From Zoogloea oleivorans (lineage in GTDB: Bacteria; Pseudomonadota; Gammaproteobacteria; Burkholderiales; Rhodocyclaceae): DNA of 64,000 nucleotides. The translations under genes were made by a program, and so were the position numbers. The notes under the pieces were generated by a model. That model was not told the origin of the DNA. It worked only from the letters and a program-made list of their open reading frames with translations, and searched no databases. Of the stretch, positions 12,961 through 25,673 are shown piece by piece; position 1 is the stretch's first letter, and each line of letters starts with the position of its first letter. Location: positions 1 through 64,000 of the forward strand of contig NZ_SDKK01000006.1 in the NCBI RefSeq assembly GCF_008107625.1, written 5' to 3'.

Positions 12961-13896
12961 ATGTCCCCCATGTCCTACGCTCCCTTCATCAAGGAAATCG
13001 GCCGCGGGCCGAAAGGCGCCAAGCCCCTCACCGTTGCTCAGGCCGAATCCCTTTTCGGCGACATGATGGACGGCCGCGTACCTGACCTGGAACTGGGCGC
13101 CATCATCCTGTCGATGCGCATCAAGGCCGAATCCCTGGACGAGCTCATCGGCTTTCAGCGCGCCCTCGATACCCGCACCGCCCACGTTCAGGTCCCGGCC
13201 GGCCCGCGCCTGGTTGTGCTGCCGACCTATAACGGAGCCCGTCGCCAGGCCAACCTGATGCCGCTGCTGGCCCTGCTGCTGGCCCGCGAGGGCATCCCGG
13301 TACTGATCCAGGGGCGCCACGACTTCGAAAGCCGGGTCAGCCCCTTCGAGCTGCTGGCCGCCCTCGGCATCACCCCGGCCAGCAGCATCGACGAAGCCGA
13401 AGCCCAACTGGTCGACAAGCACCTCGCCTGCCTGCCGCTGAGTGCCCTGGCCCCCGGTCTTGAGCCACTCCTCGCCCTGCGCCCGCGCCTGGGCGTGCGC
13501 AACAGCAGCCACACCCTCGCCAAGCTCCTCGAACCGGCCCCCGGCCACAGCGTGCGGGTTGTCTCGGTGACCCACCCTGAATACCTCGAACGCATGCATG
13601 CCCACCTGGTTGCCCAGGGCAGCGTCGCCCTGCTGCTGCGCGGCACCGAAGGGGAAGCCTTTGCCAACCCCCGCCGCCGGCCCCAGCTGGAAACCTTTGC
13701 CAAGGGCGAAGCACGCGTCGCCTTCCCTGCCGAAGAAGGCGGCGCGCCGCCCATCGAAGGCCTGCCCGACAACCCCGAAGTCAGTGCCAACGCCGAACTG
13801 ATCCGCGCCATGCTGGCCGGCACCGTCGCCATTCCGCAGCCCCTCCTCGACCAGGTTTCAGCCCTCCGCGAACTGAGCCGCGTCCCCCGCGACTGA
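12961..13896 (+). CDS. ybiB: YbiB/TrpD2-like DNA-binding protein (anthranilate phosphoribosyltransferase fold)
   Basis: A 311-residue protein (308 if ATG 12970 is used). The frame is open further upstream, but family alignment from memory (start near KEIGRG, then VPDLELGAIILSMRIKAES) supports 12961 or 12970; neither has a clear ribosome-binding site. The fold is that of anthranilate phosphoribosyltransferase, but the YbiB/TrpD2 subgroup lacks that activity and binds nucleic acid; E. coli ybiB has been linked to the LexA regulon. The segment LPTYNGARRQANLMPLLALLLAREGIPVLIQG is characteristic. No trp gene is adjacent. A GC-rich hairpin pair follows the stop. Confidence 0.85.
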   Translation: MSPMSYAPFIKEIGRGPKGAKPLTVAQAESLFGDMMDGRVPDLELGAIILSMRIKAESLDELIGFQRALDTRTAHVQVPAGPRLVVLPTYNGARRQANLMPLLALLLAREGIPVLIQGRHDFESRVSPFELLAALGITPASSIDEAEAQLVDKHLACLPLSALAPGLEPLLALRPRLGVRNSSHTLAKLLEPAPGHSVRVVSVTHPEYLERMHAHLVAQGSVALLLRGTEGEAFANPRRRPQLETFAKGEARVAFPAEEGGAPPIEGLPDNPEVSANAELIRAMLAGTVAIPQPLLDQVSALRELSRVPRD

Positions 13897-13903
13897 AGCC
13901 CGC

Positions 13904-13965
13904 CCGCGGCCCCAAAACAGGCGGCCGCGGCACCTTTCCGTCAATCCCGGAGCAACTCCGGGATT
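13904..13965 (+). terminator. Two hairpins after ybiB, possible terminator
   Basis: Two stem-loops follow the ybiB stop. The first pairs CCGCGGCC (13904-13911) with GGCCGCGG (13923-13930). The second is a 10-bp perfect stem, AATCCCGGAG (13943-13952) with CTCCGGGATT (13956-13965), and a CAA loop. Neither is followed by a proper U-run, so intrinsic termination is uncertain; the second could also be a regulatory structure before the caspase gene. Confidence 0.45.
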
Positions 13966-13978
13966 TGACAGGTAGCCG

Positions 13979-14007
13979 TTGACCTTTCACGACCCCGTGC
14001 TTAAATC
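13979..14007 (+). promoter_or_regulatory. Candidate sigma-70 promoter for the caspase gene
   Basis: TTGACC (13979-13984) and TAAATC (14002-14007) are separated by 17 bp, about 92 bp before the caspase start. The -35 matches 5 of 6 consensus bases, the -10 only about 3 of 6. This is a weak match in an otherwise GC-rich gap and is offered only as a candidate. Confidence 0.28.
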
Positions 14008-14099
14008 CATAGGAATAGTCCGAGCACTTTCGACGGACAACATCGCTACGGCCACACCGAAAGGTAAAACCCGGGCGGCATTCAAATGGGAGAGGGATC

Positions 14100-14897
14100 A
14101 TGAACAAAAAAGCGCTGTGCATCGGCATCAACGACTATCCCGGAACACAAAATGATCTGTCCGGCTGCGTCAATGACGCCAACGACTGGGCTGCCACCCT
14201 TGCTGCCCGTGGTTTCACCGTCAGCAAGCTGATCGACGCCCAGGCCACCAAGGCAGCCATGGTCGCCGCGATGAGCGGCCTGATCAGCGGCGCCACCAAG
14301 GGCGACACGGTCATCATCACCTATTCCGGCCACGGCACCTGGGTGCCCGACAAGAACGGCGACGAGCCCGACGGCCGGGATGAAGGTCTGTGCCCCTGGG
14401 ACATCGGCTCCGGCAAGGTGCTCCTCGACGACGAAATCGCCCCCATCTTCACCAACCATGTGACCGGCGTGCGGGTGATCCTCATCTCCGACAGTTGCCA
14501 TTCCGGCAGCGTCACCCGCGGCGACGACAGCGACCTCGACCCGGGCATGCCCCGCGCCCGCTTCCTGCCGCCCAGCGCATGGATGAAAGTCGACGACATC
14601 CCCGCCCCCCGCGCCTCCCGGCTCCCGCTGCTCGGCGGGCTGTCCCGCAGTGGCGGCGACCTGCTGATGGCCGGCTGTACCGACACCCAGTTCAGCTGGG
14701 ACACCAGCTTCAAGGGCCGCCCCAACGGCGCCTTCACCTACTACGCCCTCAAGGCCCTCGCCGCACTGCCGGCCACCGCCAGCTACAACGACTGGTTCAA
14801 GGCGATCTCGCCAACCTACCTGCCCACCACCAGGCTGCCGCAGAACCCGCAGATCTTCGGTAGCCGCACCGCACGCGCCTGGAAAGTCCTCTCCTGA
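14100..14897 (+). CDS. Caspase-family cysteine protease (metacaspase-like, C14)
   Basis: A 265-residue protein made of one caspase-fold domain with no signal peptide or extra domain. It starts ALCIGINDYPG, followed by LSGCVNDANDW. The catalytic dyad is intact: His78 in YSGHGTW and Cys133 in SDSCHSGS. Metacaspases cleave after arginine or lysine. The acidic insert after the histidine (DKNGDEPDGRDEGLCPWD) is seen in type I metacaspase-like bacterial proteins. A strong purine-rich ribosome-binding site (GGGAGAGGG) precedes ATG 14100. The next gene, 108 bp downstream on the same strand, encodes a giant CHAT protease, so two clan-CD proteases of different families sit together. The pair may be activator and effector in a cell-death, defence or stress response (inference); the target is unknown. 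Confidence 0.9.
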   Translation: MNKKALCIGINDYPGTQNDLSGCVNDANDWAATLAARGFTVSKLIDAQATKAAMVAAMSGLISGATKGDTVIITYSGHGTWVPDKNGDEPDGRDEGLCPWDIGSGKVLLDDEIAPIFTNHVTGVRVILISDSCHSGSVTRGDDSDLDPGMPRARFLPPSAWMKVDDIPAPRASRLPLLGGLSRSGGDLLMAGCTDTQFSWDTSFKGRPNGAFTYYALKALAALPATASYNDWFKAISPTYLPTTRLPQNPQIFGSRTARAWKVLS

Positions 14898-14905
14898 CCG
14901 GTACG

Positions 14906-14969
14906 CCGGTCCGCGGCAGCCCATCGGCAGCGGACCGGCCCTGAGCTTCTGACGCCCTGCGCGGGCGTC
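14906..14969 (+). other. Two GC-rich hairpins between the caspase and CHAT genes
   Basis: Stem 1 pairs CCGGTCCGC (14906-14914) with GCGGACCGG (14930-14938). Stem 2 pairs GACGCCC (14951-14957) with GGGCGTC (14963-14969). No U-run follows either stem. They could reduce read-through from the caspase gene to the CHAT gene, stabilise RNA ends, or simply reflect GC-rich sequence. Confidence 0.4.
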
Positions 14970-15005
14970 GCACGCGCGCCCTTCGTCCCGCTTCAGGAGT
15001 CTTCC

Positions 15006-18000
15006 GTGACCGCCCCCACGCCATCCTCGCCCCTCCGTCTCCCCGTCACCCCGGAATCCGCCACCTCGCCGGCTCGCCTGCCCGCCGGCCTGAGCCGCCC
15101 CGGCAGTCGCGGCACCGACGGCACAGCCAGTGCGCTCACCACCAACGTCATCGCCCGACACACCTGGACGCTGACCCAGGCCAGCCGCAGCGAAGACGCC
15201 CCGGCACAGGCCAGCATTCCCGCCGACGCCGGCCTCCTGGCCCTCGAAGCGGCCGACGGGACGACAATCTTCATGCGGGCCGACGCCCTCGCCGAACGGA
15301 TGGCCCGCCTGGCCATGACGCGGCCCGAACTGCTCGGCGCCGATGGCAGTTTCGATCTGGCCGCCTTCCGCCCGCGGGACGCCAACAACCGCGGCGTCGG
15401 CGACTGGATCTGGCGGCAGGTCACCTCGCTGGAGCTGATCCCGGACGAAATCACCCGGCTGGCCAAGGAAAAGGCCAGCGAACTGACTGGCAAGTCAGTC
15501 GAGGATCTGGCTGTCGCCGGGGCTTCCTGGCTCGGCGCCAAGGCCATCGTGTGGGCCATCGAAAACCAGCTCGCCGGCGAACCCGGCCTCTACCCATGGC
15601 GCGGCAGCGCCCTTGAACGACACGAACGCCTCGATGCCAACGCCGCCAGCCTGCAGATACTCAGCAGCCAACCCGGGCTGATCTTCATTCACGGCACTGG
15701 CTCCCACACCCTCGGCTCCTTCGGCGAACTGCCCGGCAGCCACACTTGGGGCAAGCTCGCCGAGCAGTTCGAAGGGCGGGTCTTCGGCTTCGAGCACCGG
15801 ACCTTCTCCGAAAGCCCCATCGACAACGCTCTCGCCCTCGTGCGCGCCCTGCCCCATGGCGCCCGCTTTTCCATCGTCAGCCATTCCCGCGGCGGCCTGG
15901 TCGGCGACCTGCTGTGCCTTGACCCTTCTGCCGACAACGACGCCCTCTTCGCCGAACTGATCAAGGCCTACCGGCGCCGCCCGGGCGCAGAAGAAGACGC
16001 CGGCAACGCCGACGACCAGGAAAAATTCGCCATCCAGGAGCAAGCCAAGCTGACTGAACTGCTCGTACTCCTGCGCGAGAAGGCATTGCTGATCGAACGC
16101 TACGTGCGCGTCGCCTCGCCGGCCCGCGGCACCTCCCTGCTCACCGACAACCTGGATCTGTTCCTGTCCGGCCTGCTGGCCCTGGTACGCCGCTTCGGCA
16201 CCTGGACGGCCGGCACCGTGGGCGGCATGGTGGCCGGCCCCGGAGCAGCCGCGGCGGCCCGGGCTGCCACCGACAAGGGCCTGGCGTTTCTCACCCGCGT
16301 CGTGCTCGAAATCGCCAATCGGCGCCTGCAGCCCCAGCTCCTGCCGGGCATAGAAGCCATGCTCCCGGAAGCACCGATGGGCATGCTGCTGGCGAACGCC
16401 CCAAGCCGTCCCGGCCTGCACATGGCGCTGATCGCCGGCGACATCGAAGGCGGCGGCTTCATCAAGCGCCTGGGCGTGATGTTCACCGACTGGATGTTCT
16501 TTGACCGGGCTGACAACGACCTGGTGGTAGACACCGCCTCCATGTACGGCGGCCTGGCCTTCCAGGCAAAGGCGCGGGCCATCTTCGTGCAGGGAGAGAA
16601 CATCAATCACTTCCGCTACTTCCGCGACGACACCGCCACCGCCGATGGTCACGCACTGCCCCAGGCCCTGCATGGCTGGCTGTCGGCCAGCGACCCGTCG
16701 GCCCTGCCCGAATGGGCCGCCTCGGCCCAGCCCGCGCTTGAAGCGCCGAGAATGCCAGGCGTCAGCCGCGGCGATGCACCGCCAGCCGCGGCCGTGCTCG
16801 TGTACCTCCCCGGCATCATGGGCAGCGAACTGGCCGCCAATGGCAACAAGATCTGGCTCGACCCCCTCGACCTGGCCCGCGGCCGGCTGGACCGGATTGC
16901 CATGGGCAGCGACGCCACAATCACGCACGAAGGGCTGGTCGGCATGGCCTACGGCAAACTCGCCGACCACCTGACCCGCAGCCACGAACTCATCACCTTC
17001 GCCTACGACTGGCGCCTGCCCATCAAAACGCTCGGCGCCACCCTTGTCAGCACCCTGCGCAAGGCGCTTGACGAGCACCCGGACAAGCCGGTGCGCATCC
17101 TTGCCCACAGCATGGGCGGCCTGGTCGTGCGCGCCGCCTTTGCCGCCGACAAAACCCTGTGGGACGACATCATCGCCCGCGACGGTGGCCGGCTCCTCAT
17201 GCTTGGCACGCCCAACCGCGGCTCCCACCTGTTCGTCGAAACCCTGCTCGGCCAGTCGGACACCATCCGCACCCTCGCCCGCGTGGACCTGCGTCACAAC
17301 ATGCAGCAGATCCTCGACATCGTCGCCGGCTTCCCCGGTGCGGTACACCTGCTGCCGGCGCCGGGCTTCACCGACACCGGCAACCTGAACGCCCGCAATT
17401 ATTACGACCGGGACGTGTGGGACAAGCTTGCCGACGTCAACAACGACTTCTGGTTCGGCCGCAAACTGGGCGGCAAACCCACCCCGGAGGTCCTCCAGGC
17501 GGCCCATGACTTCTGGCTGTCGGTGGCCGATACCGCCTGGGTGCGCAAGGCCCCCGAGCGCATCGCCTACGTTTTTGGGCAGAGCGACAACACCCCCTGC
17601 GGGCTGCTCGAACAGACCGACGGCAACAAGGTGATCGGCCTGGCCCTGCGCGGCACCCCCGAAGGCGACGGCTCCGTCACCTGGGCCTCAGGCCACCTGC
17701 CCGACCTGCCCGCCGAGCGCAAATGGCTGATGCCCGTCGATCACATGGGCCTCACCAGCACCACCAAATACTTCGACGAGATCGATGCCCTCCTTACCCG
17801 CGGCAGCCCGCGCAAGCTGGCCGCCCTGCCGGTCAGCCGGGGCGACAGCAGCGCGTCGGTTCGCACCTACCGTGCCGGCCCGCCGGAAGGCTACCCGTCG
17901 GCCCCCGAAGCAACAGCCCGCCTCCTCGGCGGCCGTGTGCAGCGAGCGGCAGCACGGGGCAAGAACCGGCTCCTGCGCGTGTCGGTCAAGGCCATGGACC

Positions 18001-21000
18001 TGCGTTTCGTGCAGATTCCGATCCTGTGCGGCCACTACCGTGGCGATCCGATCGCCGCCGCCGAATCGGTCATCGACCGCTACCTGGTGGACGGCGCCCT
18101 GAGCCAGCGCCAGCGCCTCGGCATCCACTCCGGGGCCCTCGGCAGCGCCACCATCGTGCTGATGCCACGCACCCCTGAAGAGCGCCTGCGCCAGACCGGC
18201 CGCGGCGCCGTGGTGGTGGGCCTGGGAGAAATGGGCACCTTGTCGGCCGAAGGGGTCACCGAAGCGGTGCGCTCCGGCGTGCTGCGCTACCTGCTCCACG
18301 CCGCCGACCGCTACGGTGAAGAGTCGATCACCAACGACACCCGCAGCGACACGTCCCCCACCCTGCGCCTCAGCCTGGCGAGCCTGCTGATCGGCTCGAA
18401 TTCCGCGGCCCAGCTCGACGTGGACGAAGCCATCAAGGCCGTCGTGCTGGGCGTACTGGCAGCCAACCGGGATTTCGATAACGGCACCGGCAAGCAGGCT
18501 GTACGACGCGCCTTCGTGGGCGACCTGCAGTTCGTCGAGATGTACCGCGACGCGGCCATCTCGGCCGCCCACGCCGTCCGGCGCCTCAACACCACCCTGG
18601 CCAGCGATCTCAAACGCCTCAACCTCGACCTGGAAACCGCCACCGAAGTGCGCTACGGCGAGGGCACCCGCCAGCGCCTCAGTGTGTCGCCCTTCACCGA
18701 CTACTGGCCGCGCCTGGTGGTGTGCGACGCCGACCGGGAAGACAACCACTGCACGCCCGAGTGCTACACCCCACGCGTCCAGTTGCCCATCCCGGCGGAA
18801 AGCCTGCGCCAGATCCTGCGCATCTACGGCTGCGGCGACAAAGTTGCCGACGGCCACATGCCGATTCCCACCGGGCTCGACGAAGCCCCCGCACCCCGTT
18901 ACGCCAAGCGTCTGAAGTTCATCTACATGGGTGAAAAGGCCCGTGCCGAAAGCATCGTCCAGCAACGTCAGCCGGGCCTCGTCGAAAAGCTGGCCGACAT
19001 TACTTTCAACGGTCCCGGGCGCACGCTCTATTCCCCCGAAGCAGGCTTCGGCAACACCCTGTTCCAACTGCTCGTCCCCCTCGACTTCAAGGGTGCCGCG
19101 CGCAAGGCCTGCAACCTGATTCTGGTCGTTGATGACAGCACCGCCAACCTGCCGTGGGAAATGCTGGAAGCCGACGGCAAGCCCCTGGTGCTGCGCACCC
19201 GCGTCGTACGCCAGTTCATGACACCACGCTTTCGCCAGCAGGTCGTGCGTAGCGACGACCTGTCGGCCTGCGTGATTGCCAACCCGAGCACCGAAGGCTT
19301 CCACGCTCAGTTCGGCGGACCGGGCTGGAAGCCCGCCAACGGCCCGAATGGCGTGCCCGGCTGCGACAGCCTGGCCGATCTGCCGGGCGCCGCCGGCGAG
19401 GGCGACGCGGTCAGCCGGGTTCTCACCGATGCCGGCTACGCCGTCACCATCGCCCCGCCCGACTCAACCGCCAGCGACGTCTTCACGCGCCTCTTCGCCC
19501 GCCCCTACCGCATTCTGATGGTTTCCGCCCACGGCATCTTCGCCAGGCAGGCCGCCGACGGCAGCTATCGCAGCGGCGTGGTGCTGTCGGATGGTCTGCT
19601 CCTGTCGGCCACCGAAATCAGCCTGATGGAGAACGTCCCCGACCTGGTCTTCCTGAGCTGCTGCCACCTGGGCAAGATCGGCACCGAGGCGGGCTCGAAC
19701 AGCAACCGGCTGGCCTACAGCCTGGCCCGCGAGTTGATCGACATGGGCGTGCGCTGCGTGGTGGCCGCCGGCTGGGAGGTGGACGACGCCGCCGCCCGCA
19801 CCTTCACCGAAACCTTCTTTGACCAGATGACCAACCAGGGCGCCAGCTTTGGAAACGCCATCAGCACTGCCCGCCAGACCACCTTCGACACCCACCCGGC
19901 GTGCAACACCTGGGGTGCCTACCAGGCCTACGGTGACCCGTCCTTCCAGCTTCAGGTGCGCCGGGGCACTGCAACCGACGATACCCCGCTGGGGGCTCCG
20001 GAAGAACTCATCGAGTGGCTTGAACAACGCCGTCTCGACACACGCCTTGGCGCCGCATCCTCAATCATCCCGGAGCCCGACTGCAAAACGCTGACACAAC
20101 GGATCAAGACACGCCTGAAGCATGTGCCCGACGCGTGGGTCGACCTCCCGGAAGTCCAGCAGGCACTCGGGCGCCTCTATACCGAATACGGCCGGGACGG
20201 CTTTCCAGTGGCCCGCCAAGCTCTGCTGCGCGCCATCGGTGAAGACTCCTCCCGCGGGCTGGTGCCGATATCGGCCATCGAGCAACTCGCCAACATGGAA
20301 GCCCGGCAGGCCGAACGCCTCAGTGAACCGGGCCCAGCGCAGGATCTCAAGGCAGCAACGCCACTGGTCAACGACGCCATCGCCCGCCTGAAATCCCTGC
20401 TCGCCCTGTCCAGCCCCAAACCCCACGGTGAACCGGATGCCGTCTCGAACGGGGCCCGACCCAACCTGGAACGGCTGGCCATCCTCGGCAGTGCCTACAA
20501 GCGCAAGGCCATCGTCCTCGCCCGTTCCGGCGAGACATGGAAAAAGATCGCCACCCAACTCGATCTGGCGCGCAATGCCTACACCCTGAGCGAAGGCAGC
20601 CCGGACACCACCACCGACTGGAACCCCTACGGCGCCATCAACCGCATCCAGCTCGATGCCCTGCTGGGTGACGCACCGGCCATCGACGCCCAGCTCACTC
20701 TGTGCGAAAAGGCCGCCCAGGCACGCTTCTCGCAGAGCTACGACTTCTTCGACGCGGTCATGCCCGCCGATACCGCCATCGCCCGCTGGCTGCACGACAG
20801 CACTGCCAGCGTCGCTGCGGACAGCCTGGCCGTACATCTGAAACACTATCGGGACGCCATTCGCGGCCTCAGTTGCACCCGCCGCCAGCGCGATTCGGTC
20901 AGCTCCCAGCTGGTAATCCTGGCCGAGCTTCTCGATTGCCGAAAATCCGACAAGGACAAGGAACGGGCCCGCCTCCTCAGGGATCTGGCCAGCGCCCTCC

Positions 21001-21023
21001 AGACCCCGGGCAACCAGCCATGA
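15006..21023 (+). CDS. Giant CHAT protease with two alpha/beta-hydrolase modules and helical C-terminus
   Basis: A 2005-residue protein, no signal peptide, GTG start at 15006 with AGGAG (14995-14999) six bases upstream. Regions: a poorly conserved N-terminus (1-200); alpha/beta-hydrolase 1 (about 215-490) with LIFIHGTGSHTLGS and nucleophile-type SHSRGG (Ser294); alpha/beta-hydrolase 2 of LCAT/PGAP1-like type (about 595-930) with YLPGIMGSELA and AHSMGG (Ser702); an unassigned mixed alpha/beta region (about 990-1240); a CHAT domain (about 1280-1650) with LPWEMLE, His1509 in VSAHGIF and Cys1553 in LSCCHLG; and a helical, TPR-like tail (about 1660-2005). CHAT domains are caspase-related proteases used as effectors in several bacterial immune systems. 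The hydrolase modules suggest lipid or ester cleavage. It follows a caspase gene and probably acts with it (inference). Both GTG start and frame are clean over 6 kb, so the gene is under selection and intact. Confidence 0.88.
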   Translation: MTAPTPSSPLRLPVTPESATSPARLPAGLSRPGSRGTDGTASALTTNVIARHTWTLTQASRSEDAPAQASIPADAGLLALEAADGTTIFMRADALAERMARLAMTRPELLGADGSFDLAAFRPRDANNRGVGDWIWRQVTSLELIPDEITRLAKEKASELTGKSVEDLAVAGASWLGAKAIVWAIENQLAGEPGLYPWRGSALERHERLDANAASLQILSSQPGLIFIHGTGSHTLGSFGELPGSHTWGKLAEQFEGRVFGFEHRTFSESPIDNALALVRALPHGARFSIVSHSRGGLVGDLLCLDPSADNDALFAELIKAYRRRPGAEEDAGNADDQEKFAIQEQAKLTELLVLLREKALLIERYVRVASPARGTSLLTDNLDLFLSGLLALVRRFGTWTAGTVGGMVAGPGAAAAARAATDKGLAFLTRVVLEIANRRLQPQLLPGIEAMLPEAPMGMLLANAPSRPGLHMALIAGDIEGGGFIKRLGVMFTDWMFFDRADNDLVVDTASMYGGLAFQAKARAIFVQGENINHFRYFRDDTATADGHALPQALHGWLSASDPSALPEWAASAQPALEAPRMPGVSRGDAPPAAAVLVYLPGIMGSELAANGNKIWLDPLDLARGRLDRIAMGSDATITHEGLVGMAYGKLADHLTRSHELITFAYDWRLPIKTLGATLVSTLRKALDEHPDKPVRILAHSMGGLVVRAAFAADKTLWDDIIARDGGRLLMLGTPNRGSHLFVETLLGQSDTIRTLARVDLRHNMQQILDIVAGFPGAVHLLPAPGFTDTGNLNARNYYDRDVWDKLADVNNDFWFGRKLGGKPTPEVLQAAHDFWLSVADTAWVRKAPERIAYVFGQSDNTPCGLLEQTDGNKVIGLALRGTPEGDGSVTWASGHLPDLPAERKWLMPVDHMGLTSTTKYFDEIDALLTRGSPRKLAALPVSRGDSSASVRTYRAGPPEGYPSAPEATARLLGGRVQRAAARGKNRLLRVSVKAMDLRFVQIPILCGHYRGDPIAAAESVIDRYLVDGALSQRQRLGIHSGALGSATIVLMPRTPEERLRQTGRGAVVVGLGEMGTLSAEGVTEAVRSGVLRYLLHAADRYGEESITNDTRSDTSPTLRLSLASLLIGSNSAAQLDVDEAIKAVVLGVLAANRDFDNGTGKQAVRRAFVGDLQFVEMYRDAAISAAHAVRRLNTTLASDLKRLNLDLETATEVRYGEGTRQRLSVSPFTDYWPRLVVCDADREDNHCTPECYTPRVQLPIPAESLRQILRIYGCGDKVADGHMPIPTGLDEAPAPRYAKRLKFIYMGEKARAESIVQQRQPGLVEKLADITFNGPGRTLYSPEAGFGNTLFQLLVPLDFKGAARKACNLILVVDDSTANLPWEMLEADGKPLVLRTRVVRQFMTPRFRQQVVRSDDLSACVIANPSTEGFHAQFGGPGWKPANGPNGVPGCDSLADLPGAAGEGDAVSRVLTDAGYAVTIAPPDSTASDVFTRLFARPYRILMVSAHGIFARQAADGSYRSGVVLSDGLLLSATEISLMENVPDLVFLSCCHLGKIGTEAGSNSNRLAYSLARELIDMGVRCVVAAGWEVDDAAARTFTETFFDQMTNQGASFGNAISTARQTTFDTHPACNTWGAYQAYGDPSFQLQVRRGTATDDTPLGAPEELIEWLEQRRLDTRLGAASSIIPEPDCKTLTQRIKTRLKHVPDAWVDLPEVQQALGRLYTEYGRDGFPVARQALLRAIGEDSSRGLVPISAIEQLANMEARQAERLSEPGPAQDLKAATPLVNDAIARLKSLLALSSPKPHGEPDAVSNGARPNLERLAILGSAYKRKAIVLARSGETWKKIATQLDLARNAYTLSEGSPDTTTDWNPYGAINRIQLDALLGDAPAIDAQLTLCEKAAQARFSQSYDFFDAVMPADTAIARWLHDSTASVAADSLAVHLKHYRDAIRGLSCTRRQRDSVSSQLVILAELLDCRKSDKDKERARLLRDLASALQTPGNQP

Positions 21024-21131
21024 ACCCCAAACGCCCAACAATGGTGCAAACCGGCGATCGCGCACAAGAATAGGTCGGACTTAACCCCACTCTGGTGCGC
21101 CAATATCGATGCTGGGCACGAAAAATCAATA

Positions 21132-21175
21132 CTTTAGTGCATGGCACATGGTTTGCTTGATGCCATGCACTAAAG
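21132..21175. repeat. Perfect 15-bp inverted repeat upstream of nasA
   Basis: CTTTAGTGCATGGCA (21132-21146) and TGCCATGCACTAAAG (21161-21175) are exact reverse complements with a 14-base loop. The repeat encloses the sigma-54 element and its right arm runs into the nasA ribosome-binding site. It may be an operator for a dimeric regulator, or a hairpin if transcription starts further upstream. Confidence 0.8.
21142..21157 (+). promoter_or_regulatory. Sigma-54 -24/-12 promoter of nasA
   Basis: TGGCACATGGTTTGCT matches the sigma-54 consensus TGGCACN5TTGCW, with GG and GC exactly 10 bases apart (21143-21144 and 21155-21156). Transcription should start near 21168, giving a leader of about 16 bases that still includes AAAGGAG (21172-21178) five bases before ATG 21184. 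Sigma-54 with NtrC control of nitrate assimilation is well established in proteobacteria. Single TGGTGC-type half sites at 21042-21048 and 21093-21099 could be part of NtrC sites but lack good partner halves. Confidence 0.7.
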
Positions 21176-21183
21176 GAGTCGTG

Positions 21184-23916
21184 ATGGCAGAAACCAAGTC
21201 CACCTGTTGTTACTGCGGCGTAGGCTGCGGTGTTGTGATCGAACATGAAGCCGGCCGCATCATTGGCGTAAAGGGGGACCCGGACCATCCCGCCAACTTC
21301 GGCCGCCTGTGCACCAAGGGCGCCACCCTGCACCTGTCCGCCGCACCCGACACCCTGATCGCCCGGGCACTCCATCCGGAGCTGCGCAGCAGTCGTGACG
21401 AAGGTCGCCAGCGGGTCAGCTGGGACACCGCCCTCGACACCGCCGCCGACAAGTTTGCCGCAATCATCGCCGAACACGGCCCCGATGCGGTCGCCATCTA
21501 TGGCGCCGGCCAGTTGCTGACCGAGGACTATTACGTCTTCAACAAGCTGATGAAAGGTCTCATCGGCTCGAACAACCTCGATACCAATTCGCGCCTGTGC
21601 ATGTCGAGCGCAGTGGCCGGCTACAAACTCAGCCTGGGCGCCGATGCGCCGCCGTGCAGCTACGCGGACATCGCCCACACCAAAGCCTTGTTCATCACCG
21701 GCAGCAACACCGCCTTCGCCCACCCGATCGCCTTCCGCCGCGTCGAGGACGCCCGCAAGGCCAATCCGGACATCCAGCTGGTTGTCATCGACCCGCGTCG
21801 CACCGACACCGCCGAAGCCGCCGACCTGCACCTGGCCCTGCTGCCCGGCACCGACATCGCCCTCTACAACGCGATGCTCCACGTCATGCTGTGGGAAGGC
21901 TGGATCAACCGCGATTACGTGGACGCCCACACCGAAGGCTTCGACGCCCTCAAGAAGACCGTTCGCGAATACACGCCGGCCATGGCAGCCACCATCTGCG
22001 GCCTCGACAGAAAGCACATCGAGCAGGCGGCGCAGATTTTCGCCACCTCTCCGGCCACCATGTCGATGTATTGCCAGGGACTCAACCAGTTCTCCTTCGG
22101 CACCCACAACAACTCGGCACTGATCAACCTGCACCTGGCTACCGGCCAGATCGGCAAACCGGGCGCCGGCCCCTTCTCCCTCACCGGCCAGCCCAATGCC
22201 ATGGGCGGCCGCGAAGTCGGGGGCCTGTCGAATCTGCTGTCAGCCCACCGGGACATGGCCAACGCCGAACACCGGGCCGAAGTCGCCGCCCTGTGGGGCG
22301 TGGACAGCGTCCCCGAGAAGCCCGGCAAGAGCGCCGTCGAACTGTTCAAGGCACTGCAAACCGGCGAGATCAAGGCCGTATGGATCGCCTGCACCAACCC
22401 GGCCCAGTCGATGCCCGATCAGGCCCTCATCCACGAGGCCCTCAAAACTGCCGAATTCGTCATCGTCCAGGAAGCCTTTGGTCACACCGAAACCTGCGCC
22501 TACGCCGACCTGCTGCTGCCCGCCAGTACCTGGGGCGAGAAAGATGGCACCGTCACCAACTCGGAGCGGGCCATCACCCGCGTCCGGGCCGCCGTGTCCG
22601 CGCCGGGTGAAGCCCGCCACGATTGGGCGATCGTGGTGGATTTCGCCCGGCGTCTGGGCACTCGTCTCGGCAAGGGCGAGCTTGCCGCACGGATGTTCCC
22701 CTACAGCGCGCCGGAAGAAGTCTGGAACGAGCATCGCGAATCCACCCGCGGCCGCGACCTGGACATTACCGGCCTCAGCTATACCATGCTGGAAACCGTC
22801 GGCCCCCAGCAATGGCCCTTCCCCGAAGGCGCCAGCCAGGGCAAGGTCCGGCTCTACGAAGACGGCATCTTCCCGACGCCCTCCGGGCGTGCCCGCTTCG
22901 TCGTCACCGAACACCGCATCACCGCAGAATCGCCCAGCGCCCGCTACCCGCTGCACCTCAACACCGGGCGCCTGCGCGACCAGTGGCACGGCATGAGCCG
23001 CACCGGCCTCGTCGCCCGCCTCTACAGCCATGAGCCAGAACCCATGCTGCACATGCACAAGGACGACATGGAGCGCCGCCAGTTGGCCAATGGCGATCTC
23101 GTCAAGGTGAAGAGCAAACGTGGCGACGTGGTGCTCAAAGTGGTGGAGTCCGCCACCCTGCGCGCCGGACAGAGCTTCCTGCCGATGCACTGGGGCGGCA
23201 ACACCATGGGCGGCCAGGGCGTGAACGTGCTGCTGCCATCCGACTTCGATCCGTACTCGAAACAACCCGAACTCAAGCACGCTGCCGTGCAGGTAGAGAA
23301 ATACACCGCCGGCAAGGCCCTGGTTGCCATGCGCCGCACCGAGGTGGACGCCGACGGCAATCTGCAACCCAACCCGCTGGCAGTGATGGACAGGCTGCGC
23401 CAGTGGCTACCCAATTTCCCCTATGCCAGCCTGACGCTGGCCGGACGCACCGCGCCGGTCATCGTTCTGAAGGCCCGTGGCGAAGAACTGGCACCGGAAC
23501 TGCTGGCGGCCCTCGACCGGGAGCTGTCGCTCGACGATCCGACCAAAGTACTGTCCTACCAGGACAGTCGCAAGGACGTGGCCAAGCGGGCGCTGGTGGA
23601 GGGTGACTCCCTTGCCGCCGTGCGTCTGGCCGGCGAAACCAAGGCCGCCGACTGGCTCACCGACATGATGGTACAAGGGCACTCAGCGGCAGCCGTACGC
23701 CCTTGGCTTCTGGCACCGCTGACCCAGCCGCCTGCCGGACAAGCCGCCCGTGGCAAGGTCATCTGCAACTGTTTCGACGTGGCCGAAGACGATATCCTGA
23801 GCGCTTTCCGCGCCGGGGAATCGCTGGATGCCCTTCAGGCACGTACCAAGTGCGGTACCAACTGCGGCTCCTGCGTGCCGGAACTGAAGCGTCTGCGCCA
23901 CAGCGTATCGAACTGA
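21184..23916 (+). CDS. nasA: Assimilatory nitrate reductase catalytic subunit
   Basis: A 910-residue cytosolic molybdoenzyme that reduces nitrate to nitrite for growth. The frame is open from 21109, but ATG 21184 has an ideal AAAGGAG and gives the usual N-terminus. Cofactor sites are visible: N-terminal 4Fe-4S cysteines in STCCYCGVGC and LCTKG, the likely molybdenum-ligating Cys139 in NSRLCMSSAV, bis-MGD binding segments through the middle, and the C-terminal molydopterin-binding domain near HLNTGRLRDQWH. The extreme C-terminus carries a BFD-like 2Fe-2S domain (about 855-910; ICNCF and KCGTNCGSC), present in the NasA subgroup that takes electrons from an NADH-linked partner. No nitrite reductase, transporter or nasST/ntrBC genes are adjacent, so these must be elsewhere. 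Preceded by a sigma-54 promoter, which fits nitrogen control. Confidence 0.95.
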   Translation: MAETKSTCCYCGVGCGVVIEHEAGRIIGVKGDPDHPANFGRLCTKGATLHLSAAPDTLIARALHPELRSSRDEGRQRVSWDTALDTAADKFAAIIAEHGPDAVAIYGAGQLLTEDYYVFNKLMKGLIGSNNLDTNSRLCMSSAVAGYKLSLGADAPPCSYADIAHTKALFITGSNTAFAHPIAFRRVEDARKANPDIQLVVIDPRRTDTAEAADLHLALLPGTDIALYNAMLHVMLWEGWINRDYVDAHTEGFDALKKTVREYTPAMAATICGLDRKHIEQAAQIFATSPATMSMYCQGLNQFSFGTHNNSALINLHLATGQIGKPGAGPFSLTGQPNAMGGREVGGLSNLLSAHRDMANAEHRAEVAALWGVDSVPEKPGKSAVELFKALQTGEIKAVWIACTNPAQSMPDQALIHEALKTAEFVIVQEAFGHTETCAYADLLLPASTWGEKDGTVTNSERAITRVRAAVSAPGEARHDWAIVVDFARRLGTRLGKGELAARMFPYSAPEEVWNEHRESTRGRDLDITGLSYTMLETVGPQQWPFPEGASQGKVRLYEDGIFPTPSGRARFVVTEHRITAESPSARYPLHLNTGRLRDQWHGMSRTGLVARLYSHEPEPMLHMHKDDMERRQLANGDLVKVKSKRGDVVLKVVESATLRAGQSFLPMHWGGNTMGGQGVNVLLPSDFDPYSKQPELKHAAVQVEKYTAGKALVAMRRTEVDADGNLQPNPLAVMDRLRQWLPNFPYASLTLAGRTAPVIVLKARGEELAPELLAALDRELSLDDPTKVLSYQDSRKDVAKRALVEGDSLAAVRLAGETKAADWLTDMMVQGHSAAAVRPWLLAPLTQPPAGQAARGKVICNCFDVAEDDILSAFRAGESLDALQARTKCGTNCGSCVPELKRLRHSVSN

Positions 23917-23958: not shown

Positions 23959-24846
23959 TCAGACCCGGGCCAGCCCGTTGGCCTGCATCCACTTGAGCGT
24001 GGCTTCGGCCACGGCGTCGCATTCGCCGACGCCCGAAAAAGTATGATCGGCTTCGGGGAAGTGCAGCACCTCGACCCCCTGACGCCCCAGCACCGCACGC
24101 CATTCAGCGCTTGAAGCCTGCATCTGATCGAACTCCCGCGCCACGTAATCCCGGCCACTCAGCAACACCGCCAGCGGATCATCGCGTCTGGCCAGACCCT
24201 TGGCCATCCGCTCGGGCAGACTGCCGGTCGCCTCCTCCACCTGAACCGCTGCGGCAGCCGACGGTTTGTCGGCACTGCCACCGGCCACCTTGAGCAGGGA
24301 AAACAGGCTGCCGAAAGAACTCAGCACACTGACCTTGCCCCCCAGCAACTTCTTCCAGAAGGCCGGATCAGTCAGTCGCTGCAGATAGTAATGCTTGAGA
24401 AAAACCTTGGCCTCACCCGCCTCGGTGTGCACCCAGGGATTCAGCAGCAGGGAGCCGGCCACCCGCCGATCTGTTTCGGCCGGATACAGGCAAACAGCAC
24501 TGGCCCCGTCGCACAGGCCCCACAGCACCACCCGACTCAACCCCGGCTGGGCCTTGAGAAACGCACCGATGGCGGCATCGATGTCGTCATTGAGCGCCTC
24601 GAAACTACTCGCCGGCCCCGTTGAATCGCCCATCCCGCGATAGTCGAAGCGCATGCACGGTATACCGCGAACAGCCAGATGGCGCGCCACCAGGACAAAC
24701 TGCCGATGGGCACCGGCCCTGTACTGCGGACCGCCGACAATGACCAGCACACCGACCTCGGCAGGCACCAGCGGCGCCGAGACGATGCCCACCAGGGATT
24801 CGCCGGCGCACTCGAACATCACGACGCTATCGTGCCAGTCGCTCAT
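23959..24846 (-). CDS. Exosortase A system-associated hydrolase 1
   Basis: A 295-residue cytosolic alpha/beta-hydrolase. The N-terminal half has VIVGGPQYRAGAHRQFVLVARHLA and the conserved MRFDYRGMGDSTG loop, then WGLCDGASA where the nucleophile elbow is expected; here the residue is Cys or Asp-Gly rather than a plain GxSxG, as in this family (TIGR03100 type). These proteins occur in genomes with the XrtA/PEP-CTERM sorting system and their reaction is not known. ATG 24846 overlaps the stop of hydrolase 2 (ATGA), so the two are translationally coupled in the order ACP, hydrolase 2, hydrolase 1. Probably involved in making or trimming an acyl or aminoacyl group for the cell-surface polymer (inference). 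Confidence 0.87.
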   Translation of the reverse strand: MSDWHDSVVMFECAGESLVGIVSAPLVPAEVGVLVIVGGPQYRAGAHRQFVLVARHLAVRGIPCMRFDYRGMGDSTGPASSFEALNDDIDAAIGAFLKAQPGLSRVVLWGLCDGASAVCLYPAETDRRVAGSLLLNPWVHTEAGEAKVFLKHYYLQRLTDPAFWKKLLGGKVSVLSSFGSLFSLLKVAGGSADKPSAAAAVQVEEATGSLPERMAKGLARRDDPLAVLLSGRDYVAREFDQMQASSAEWRAVLGRQGVEVLHFPEADHTFSGVGECDAVAEATLKWMQANGLARV

Positions 24847-25673
24847 GCAAACTCCTCAAGGGCAAGCAGCGAGGCCTCGATCAATGCCGGACACAATTCG
24901 ATTTCCTGGGTTTGCCAGAAGGCCGGCCCAACCACGGCCTGCGCCCGGCAACGAATGCCGGCCCCAACCCAGCGATCGATAAGCACCCGGAGTGCGGGAG
25001 AGACTTCTTCGCGCTCCGGCGGACCAAGCTCCAGCGCCACAACCGGCGCAGGATAGCCGTTCTGCAGCCCCAGGGTAGCCGACTCCATGCCCCTGGCCAG
25101 ATCGGAAGACAGGCGGTAGCCGGCAACATCAACGCTTTCACCGGCCTTCAGGCTGGCCCGCACGGCTTCCATCGATGCCTTGGCATCGGCATCGGCAAGC
25201 ATCTCGGCAGCACCTTTCAGGCGCAGGAACTGGGTCAGGTGCTGACGCCCGTTACTCACCGGCTGCCACAGCAACAAGGGCGCAGCGACACCGCCCGAGC
25301 GCAGCCAGTCGGCCAGCACGAGGGCGCCACCGCGCATCCCCCAAAGGGCTACCGCACCTTTGAGGTGTGTCGTTACCCACGACCAGGCATCACGGCAGTC
25401 CTGGATCCACAGATCCCAGGATGCATCGCCAAAATCACCGGCACTGTCGCCACATCCGGTCAGATCGACCTGGAGAGTCGACCACCCCCTGGTGGCGAAA
25501 GCTTCTGCGGCAAGGGCAACCATTCGCCGGGACTTGTTCATTTCCTCGGCAAACGGGTGCACAAAAATCAGGGTGCCGACAGGATCTACCGCATGGGTGA
25601 GGAAACAGAAGCGACCACCTGCTGCAGACCCCGGAAGAAAAAATGCCTCCCGCCGGGGCTTCAAGCCCGCCAT
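24843..25673 (-). CDS. Exosortase A system-associated hydrolase 2
   Basis: A 276-residue protein of the alpha/beta-hydrolase superfamily, second type found with XrtA clusters (TIGR03101 type). It begins LKPRREAFFLPGSAAGGRFCFLTHA, continues FVHPFAEEMNKSRRMVALAAEAFA and LQVDLTGCGDSAGDFGDASW, and has WGMRGGALV at the nucleophile-elbow position, again without a standard GxSxG serine. The catalytic mechanism is therefore unclear. The start lies immediately after the ACP stop (no gap), and its stop overlaps the start of hydrolase 1, which marks a tight three-gene operon. Function is unknown; the context points to thioester or lipid chemistry on the ACP. Confidence 0.85.
   Translation of the reverse strand: MAGLKPRREAFFLPGSAAGGRFCFLTHAVDPVGTLIFVHPFAEEMNKSRRMVALAAEAFATRGWSTLQVDLTGCGDSAGDFGDASWDLWIQDCRDAWSWVTTHLKGAVALWGMRGGALVLADWLRSGGVAAPLLLWQPVSNGRQHLTQFLRLKGAAEMLADADAKASMEAVRASLKAGESVDVAGYRLSSDLARGMESATLGLQNGYPAPVVALELGPPEREEVSPALRVLIDRWVGAGIRCRAQAVVGPAFWQTQEIELCPALIEASLLALEEFA

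Follow-up and report, generated by a model that had tools for sequence, protein, structure and literature searches.

A Caspase Gene Paired with a Large Lipase-CHAT Gene in Zoogloea oleivorans: A Candidate Protease-Gated Effector Module

The window analyzed here is a whole stretch of 64,000 nucleotides from Zoogloea oleivorans (contig NZ_SDKK01000006.1, positions 1 to 64,000). It contains a stand-alone caspase gene that is followed, after a gap of 108 bp and also on the + strand, by the gene for a 2005-residue protein, denoted here as BIG, in which two alpha/beta-hydrolases are fused to a macro-like domain, a CHAT protease domain, and TPR-like helices. The pairing of the two genes is far above chance, and some related bacteria carry other immune-type genes in the place of the caspase. 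Judging from the sequences and the predicted models, the two genes may work as one module in which a protease controls a membrane-damaging effector, serving abortive infection or regulated cell death, and we regard the chances for and against this reading as evenly balanced.

Domains and Catalytic Residues

A first-pass annotation, made by a model from the sequence, had placed a caspase and a 2005-residue CHAT protein side by side, and both open reading frames were found as follows.

14100-14897, + strand: stand-alone caspase (metacaspase/orthocaspase type), ATG start, 265 residues
14331-14333, + strand: codon of caspase His78
14496-14498, + strand: codon of caspase Cys133
15006-21023, + strand: BIG, GTG start, 2005 residues; N-terminal segment, hydrolase 1, hydrolase 2, macro-like domain, CHAT, and TPR-S
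15648-16640, + strand: hydrolase 1 (about residues 215-545, DUF7379); Ser294 codon at 15885-15887
16785-17813, + strand: hydrolase 2 (about residues 594-936), phospholipase-A2/LCAT-like fold; Ser702 codon at 17109-17111
17964-18620, + strand: macro-like domain (about residues 987-1205), related to the leucyl-aminopeptidase N-terminal domain
19050-19937, + strand: CHAT protease domain (residues 1349-1644; Pfam CHAT, E=3.6e-29)
19530-19532 and 19662-19664, + strand: codons of CHAT His1509 and Cys1553
19983-21014, + strand: C-terminal TPR-like helices, including TPR-S

The caspase matches Peptidase_C14 in Pfam (E=3.9e-24) and the caspase model PDLC02987 in PADLOC. Its closest solved structure is that of GSU0716 (3bij, 7.6e-30), followed by metacaspases. 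Residues His78, Cys133, Asp26, and Asp131 were found to be invariant in the 40 homologues with at least 50% identity (51 were aligned). We take Asp26 and Asp131 to be the acidic S1 residues that give metacaspases their preference for Arg or Lys.

Among named organisms, the nearest relatives of BIG come from Zoogloea (63-86% identity). The lipase-like modules that the first-pass annotation had seen in BIG are borne out by two Pfam matches, DUF7379 at residues 225-304 (E=3.8e-28) and LCAT at residues 659-764 (E=1.4e-4). In hydrolase 1 the motif HSRGG is conserved and Ser294 is kept in 61 of the 63 distinct BIG proteins, while Ser702 of hydrolase 2 is kept in 59 of 63. The two hydrolases match one another by profile (probability 92.8); no fold match of hydrolase 1's own was obtained among those listed, the piece used for the fold search having covered residues 591-940. 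Hydrolase 2 is a predicted phospholipase from the resemblance of its modeled fold to phospholipase A2 and LCAT. The macro-like domain was seen by a fold match and by profile-profile comparison with M17_N only (one of the 17 loci in the latter had no open frame and was dropped); it was not detected by Pfam on single sequences or by a PDB profile search. The CHAT region gave fold matches to SAVED-CHAT, gingipain R, separase, and caspase-7, and it is the only CHAT match (E<=0.001) in the 5.7-Mb genome of the window. TPR-S was matched at residues 1749-1883 (Pfam, E=3.5e-7).

His1509 and Cys1553 of the CHAT domain are invariant in 63/63 BIG proteins. Together with the invariance of His78 and Cys133 this upholds the catalytic pairs named in the first-pass annotation, and the His-Cys dyad of clan CD is thus present in both the caspase (C14) and the CHAT domain. 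Since the catalytic residues are near-invariant in homologues, the enzymes of the caspase and BIG look active. CHAT, caspase, TPR-S, macro-like, and hydrolase matches are all of kinds used in immune effectors, as had been claimed for the CHAT and caspase-like proteases; the macro-like domain, the C-terminal TPR-S, and the other genes found in the place of the caspase had been missed. A scan for promoters and terminators over 13850-21200 was uninformative: it gave a single promoter-like site, on the - strand, against 0.6 expected, and seven resembling terminators, against 4.8 expected (standard deviation 2.2).

Pairing of the Caspase and BIG Genes across Genomes

Co-occurrence was determined in a sample of 199 genomes of the family. 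BIG was counted at E<1e-50, which gave 52 genomes; any match was found in 65, and the 13 with weaker matches were left out. The caspase search of the same genomes returned any match in 86 and a close caspase (at least 55% identity) in 32, leaving out caspases below 55% identity and one split match with pieces of 40% and 61% (genome G009). All 32 genomes with a close caspase fall within the 52 BIG genomes (Fisher p=1.3e-23), and the 14 caspase genera all fall within the 22 BIG genera of 68 (p=2.6e-9); these sets were compiled by hand, and kinship between genomes, which inflates the counts, was handled only in part.

Adjacency was counted at 53 BIG loci from the 52 family genomes, including the window. 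The caspase gene lies directly upstream of BIG on the same strand in 25 of them (24 of 41 compared together, plus L097), and at L099 BIG is immediately followed by a divergent caspase (39%). On contigs from a wider range of genomes, the pair was found in 12 of 15 loci, 5 of the 15 apparently coming from genomes already counted. A metagenome-assembled genome of the Desulfobacterales (L081; caspase 64%, BIG 46%) and Pseudomonas fluorescens (L083; caspase 68%, BIG 53%) both carry the pair, and at most paired loci the caspase is better conserved than BIG. In the wider samples BIG was found in 11/369 genomes of the class and 4/299 of the phylum, each count including the window. Co-occurrence of the two genes, which the first-pass annotation had proposed for examination, is seen within the family and also beyond it, in further classes and phyla.

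Conserved Arginines in the Linkers

Arginines in the linkers of BIG are candidate cut sites on the basis of alignment. Within variable, indel-rich linkers, single arginines are held, and they lie in stretches predicted to be flexible from their low predicted local distance difference test score (pLDDT).

15186-15188, + strand: Arg61, N-terminal segment; Arg in 61/63, pLDDT < 50 at 59-63
15390-15392, + strand: Arg129, before hydrolase 1; Arg in 56/63, Gly130 94%, pLDDT < 50 at 123-134
16767-16769, + strand: Arg588, linker between hydrolases 1 and 2, VSRGD; Arg in 63/63, pLDDT < 50 at 573-593
17838-17840, + strand: Arg945, linker between hydrolase 2 and the macro-like domain, VSRGD; Arg in 62/63, pLDDT < 50 at 943-950

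The pLDDT at Arg945 is low in both models, but this position is the cut end of both modeled pieces. In the window Arg129 reads NRG and hence falls outside the motif [AST]R[GSA].

Occurrences of [AST]R[GSA] were counted in each stretch without alignment and compared with residue shuffles. The motif was found in 44/62 N-terminal segments (18.9 expected), 57/63 linkers between the hydrolases (17.5 expected), and 47/63 linkers between hydrolase 2 and the macro-like domain (19.5 expected); for the Arg129 stretch it was found in 24 of 37 representatives at 60% identity (8.0 expected). No excess was found in the CHAT-side linkers, macro-CHAT (5/41, 7.6 expected) and CHAT-TPR (12/63, 17.4 expected), or in five control loops (0-11 counted, 7.2-14.3 expected). 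Among 12 representatives below 45% identity, 9, 8, 11, and 8 carried the motif in the four N-side stretches (3.2, 2.3, 3.1, and 4.0 expected), and among 8 below 38% identity the numbers were 5, 4, 8, and 5 (2.2, 1.7, 2.1, and 2.4 expected), the 8/8 being the linker between the hydrolases. The conserved linker arginines that had been suggested as something to look for were thus found at four positions, with the N-side motif two- to threefold above shuffles.

In many homologues the conserved Arg-Gly at the start of residues 129-150 (15390-15455) is followed by an amphipathic-looking stretch, which reads GVGDWIWRQV in the window. After a cut, this stretch past Arg129 might form a new N-terminus and possibly touch the membrane.

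Genes in the Place of the Caspase

A TIR-type gene, in place of a caspase, precedes BIG in 6 of the 53 family loci. Three were assigned by Pfam (L054, L059, and L062), one by clustering (L058), and one by inspection (L060); at the sixth (L135) the TIR match of the adjacent TPR gene is below the cut-off and that of the preceding gene is above it. The TIR gene of L062 matches ThsB models (3.2e-37). Elsewhere in the family, BIG is preceded by a GH19-like murein hydrolase (L034), a TPR/DUF7779 protein (L043), or a SLOG-like protein (L067; Pfam YAcAr 0.004, below the cut-off). Outside the family, the partners include Amidase_2 (L113), a metallo-beta-lactamase fold (L086), caspases (L107 and L111), and a gene at L085 that is SLOG-like by eye and has no Pfam match. 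Partner swapping, with TIR and murein hydrolases as partners, is the usual habit of conflict systems.

Some loci hold more than two such genes. At Azoarcus-type loci a further gene precedes the caspase, with CHAT in L035 (14027-17044, - strand) and TIR plus CHAT in L036 (3642-5996, + strand), and in L036 and L037 clustering groups the product of the gene that follows BIG with TIR proteins. The order at L083 is GH19-like (below the cut-off), caspase, BIG, and DUF4062/TPR, and at L081 a TIR gene lies downstream of the pair.

Two families adjoining BIG were noted in passing. The SLOG-like family of 220-240 residues (FSGHMxDAPxR...LTQGAAGGDLLFAEA) directly precedes BIG in two distant genomes (L067:12719-13378, - strand; L085:9173-9898, + strand). 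On Paracoccus plasmids a protein of 1081-1094 residues is encoded directly before a BIG relative, with a gap of 37 bp in L126 (4169-7453) and an overlap of 4 bp in L127 (4279-7524); a Pfam match, to a solute-binding domain, was obtained in L126 only.

Genomic Setting

The order of a ybiB-like gene, the caspase, BIG, and a molybdopterin reductase is the same in 8/8 Zoogloea-type loci compared (L032, L033, L072-L076, and L078, with L032 and L073 from one genome). The suggestion that the pair lies in a variable island was therefore rejected for the locus of the window. At L087 and L088, from the genus of the window, the ybiB-like gene, caspase, and reductase are found in the same order and BIG is missing between them; each of these genomes carries a divergent BIG elsewhere (L068 and L069). 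BIG can thus be gained or lost alone, since the caspase and flanks are kept in its absence. At L078 (10001-15944, a Zoogloea metagenome-assembled genome) the caspase is intact and the BIG frame is in several pieces, which would be either a decayed copy or an assembly error.

The 11 flanking genes of the window (6552-28687) belong to metabolic, signaling, or polysaccharide-type families. Two alpha/beta-hydrolase genes lie downstream of the locus at 23959-25673 (- strand); they resemble exosortase-associated hydrolases, presumably pointing to an exopolysaccharide cluster.

BIG relatives were found on nine plasmids at E<=1e-20. The surroundings were opened for four of the nine (one without annotation), and only the Azotobacter copy has restriction-modification, Fic, and recombinase genes as neighbors. 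On that plasmid (NZ_CP066312.1, L125) the BIG relative sits between type I restriction-modification/Fic/recombinase genes and transposases. A phage or prophage origin was considered and rejected: a search of 50,697 phage records gave no match (E<=1e-5), and no stretch of the viral contigs fits the six peptide patterns used. Among PHROGs one family of unknown function matches the caspase (4.8e-5) and no family matches BIG.

Proposed Mechanism and Alternatives

In the proposed mechanism BIG would be a latent, polyprotein-like executioner. A signal would be received by the macro-like and/or TPR-S parts, or by the partner gene, and would switch on a clan CD protease, which could be the caspase, CHAT acting in cis, or both in succession. 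Cuts would then fall after the arginines of three linkers: the one ahead of hydrolase 1, the one joining the two hydrolases, and the one leading into the macro domain. This would free the two alpha/beta-hydrolases, of which the second, the predicted phospholipase, would attack the lipids of the cell's own membrane. Zoogloea is a floc-forming genus. This habit fits the module because several related conflict systems have been tied to multicellular habit (PMC7159879).

We also propose, more tentatively, a wider reading: BIG would be one latent polyprotein that holds its own protease, a macro-like domain acting as ligand sensor, and two lipases linked through Arg cut sites of its own, and the gene upstream of it would be interchangeable (caspase, TIR, murein hydrolase, SLOG-like, or STAND-type). 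In this way various sensors or additional executioners would act through one conserved phospholipase released by proteolysis, and the whole would be a new immune or death switch.

Several observations weigh against a protease-gated module. The linker motif persists where no caspase is adjacent, and between the hydrolases it is even more common there (31/31, vs 26/32 with a caspase); in the other three N-side stretches it is rarer without the caspase (19, 17, and 19 of 31, vs 25, 23, and 28 of 32, the last being the linker between hydrolase 2 and the macro-like domain). A filter that picks conserved residues whose neighbors are poorly conserved returned 17 positions, among which only Arg61 and Arg129 are arginines; Arg588 and Arg945 fail it, with local means of 0.43 and 0.42. 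The motif was picked after the alignment had been seen, and shuffles leave shared ancestry in the counts, which the use of representatives removes only partly. The models behind the macro and hydrolase assignments have a mean pLDDT of 68-73. Eight of the 32 caspase genomes carry the caspase away from BIG, and in several of these its neighbors look like housekeeping genes; 18 of the 53 family loci have no recognized partner or reach the end of a contig (L042, with a partial upstream gene and no Pfam match, is counted as unassigned). In Zoogloea the pair occupies a fixed place in the chromosome, and Pfam detects no defense family among the 11 flanking genes.

Since loci that lack an adjacent caspase keep the motif, cutting may be due to CHAT, the caspase, or both, and the case for the caspase as sole cutter is weakened. 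The first-pass annotation had proposed a cascade in which the caspase cuts or is cut by the CHAT protein. The conserved linker arginines agree with cutting of BIG; their retention without the caspase means that the caspase need not be the enzyme that cuts. BIG could instead be self-sufficient, with CHAT cutting in cis and the upstream caspase, TIR, or murein hydrolase serving as a separate effector or signal source, in the way that SAVED-CHAT drives downstream proteolysis. We consider this possible, though on the doubtful side.

It is less probable, and in our judgment unlikely, that the linker arginines are structural, capping or packing the domains without being cut, and that the pair carries out proteolysis for stress response or housekeeping, with no part in cell death. 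The fixed synteny in Zoogloea, the caspase copies without an adjacent BIG, and the lack of any defense or phage family among the 11 flanking genes scanned would all suit such a role. However, the arginines lie in indel-rich linkers of low pLDDT in which the small-Arg-small motif is repeated, and TIR and murein hydrolases are established as usual partners in conflict systems. An exported or injected antibacterial effector, a lipase of the kind delivered by type VI secretion with co-secreted murein hydrolases as neighbors, appears improbable: neither VgrG nor PAAR was found among the genes scanned, and CHAT, TPR-S, TIR, and caspase point to intracellular signaling. Most improbable of all is that two independently useful genes merely happen to be neighbors in related bacteria. 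BIG without the caspase and the caspase without an adjacent BIG both occur, and relatedness inflates the co-occurrence counts, but co-occurrence is strong by genus too and the same order and orientation recur in other classes and phyla; incidental adjacency is already disfavored by the counts.

If the protease-gated module is correct, two branches of the caspase clan would be linked in one small cassette, and a proteolytically released phospholipase would join the known bacterial self-killing routes that stop infection. The question of what a bacterial caspase targets would become directly testable, with four arginines, two catalytic dyads, and two hydrolase serines named. The TIR genes in the place of the caspase at some loci would tie the module to immune signaling based on nicotinamide adenine dinucleotide.

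Comparison with Known Systems

No description of BIG or of the caspase-BIG pair was found in the literature searched, which was mostly without subscription journals. The claim that no described system has this exact make-up stands to that extent, although related pairings are known in the VMAP systems (PMC7159879) and in SAVED-CHAT (PMC11229360).

In the VMAP ternary (MoxR-vWA) conflict systems a caspase is found with a neighboring alpha/beta-hydrolase, the effectors (caspase, trypsin, or TIR) are exchangeable, and a multicellular habit is associated (Kaur et al. 2020, PMC7159879). The window likewise has a caspase gene with a neighboring alpha/beta-hydrolase gene. The terms 'CHAT' and 'TPR-S' do not occur in the main text of that paper. 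Unlike the VMAP systems, no MoxR, vWA, or VMAP family was found by Pfam in the 11 flanking genes, the rest of the genome not having been searched, and BIG fuses two hydrolases to macro-like, CHAT, and TPR-S parts.

The SAVED-CHAT cascade reportedly activates a prokaryotic caspase. This proteolytic cascade belongs to type III CRISPR (PMC11229360). BIG shares the CHAT protease domain, but no SAVED is found among its 11 Pfam matches at E<=1, and it adds two hydrolases and a macro-like domain. As in the TPR-CHAT of Craspase (PMC9729208), BIG joins CHAT, a caspase-like protease, to TPR-like helices, and the Craspase structure 8d9f is among its Foldseek matches. Craspase is run by the gRAMP CRISPR effector, whereas BIG has fused hydrolases and a neighboring caspase, TIR, or other gene.

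A fungal pair of genes encodes a TPR-bearing CHAT protease and the membrane-damaging effector that it activates, gasdermin (PMC12881547); the window offers a parallel in holding a two-gene unit with a TPR-bearing CHAT protease and a candidate membrane-damaging effector. In contrast to the fungal pair, BIG unites the protease with the membrane-active candidate in a single chain, and its partner gene encodes a caspase. Bacterial gasdermin systems have a gasdermin gene beside the protease, but Pfam found no gasdermin family among the flanking genes scanned. The MaOC1 orthocaspase adjoins a toxin-antitoxin unit and activates a latent toxic unit by proteolysis, likely at basic residues (PMC7935541). 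It resembles the window in the placement of a bacterial caspase gene beside a latent toxic unit, for which BIG is a candidate, but its target is an antitoxin and not a lipase-CHAT protein.

Some BIG loci resemble the macro-containing type of Thoeris (PMC11204291) in having an upstream TIR gene (L062, ThsB models) and in the macro-like domain of BIG. Unlike in Thoeris, this domain is of the leucyl-aminopeptidase N-terminal type, the output would be CHAT and hydrolases, and the upstream partner in the window is Peptidase_C14, with TIR only at other BIG loci. Pfam finds no SIR2 or SLOG family in BIG, and the macro-like fold is present. For Borvo (PADLOC), the BovA profile matches the CHAT region of BIG (E=8.7e-6) at residues 1465-1626 only. 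The type VI secretion lipase effectors (Tle) share an alpha/beta-hydrolase lipase fold with BIG and differ in that VgrG and PAAR are absent from the 11 flanking genes scanned. The collective comparison suggests that the caspase-BIG pair is an undescribed variant of the caspase/CHAT conflict systems rather than a member of a described one.

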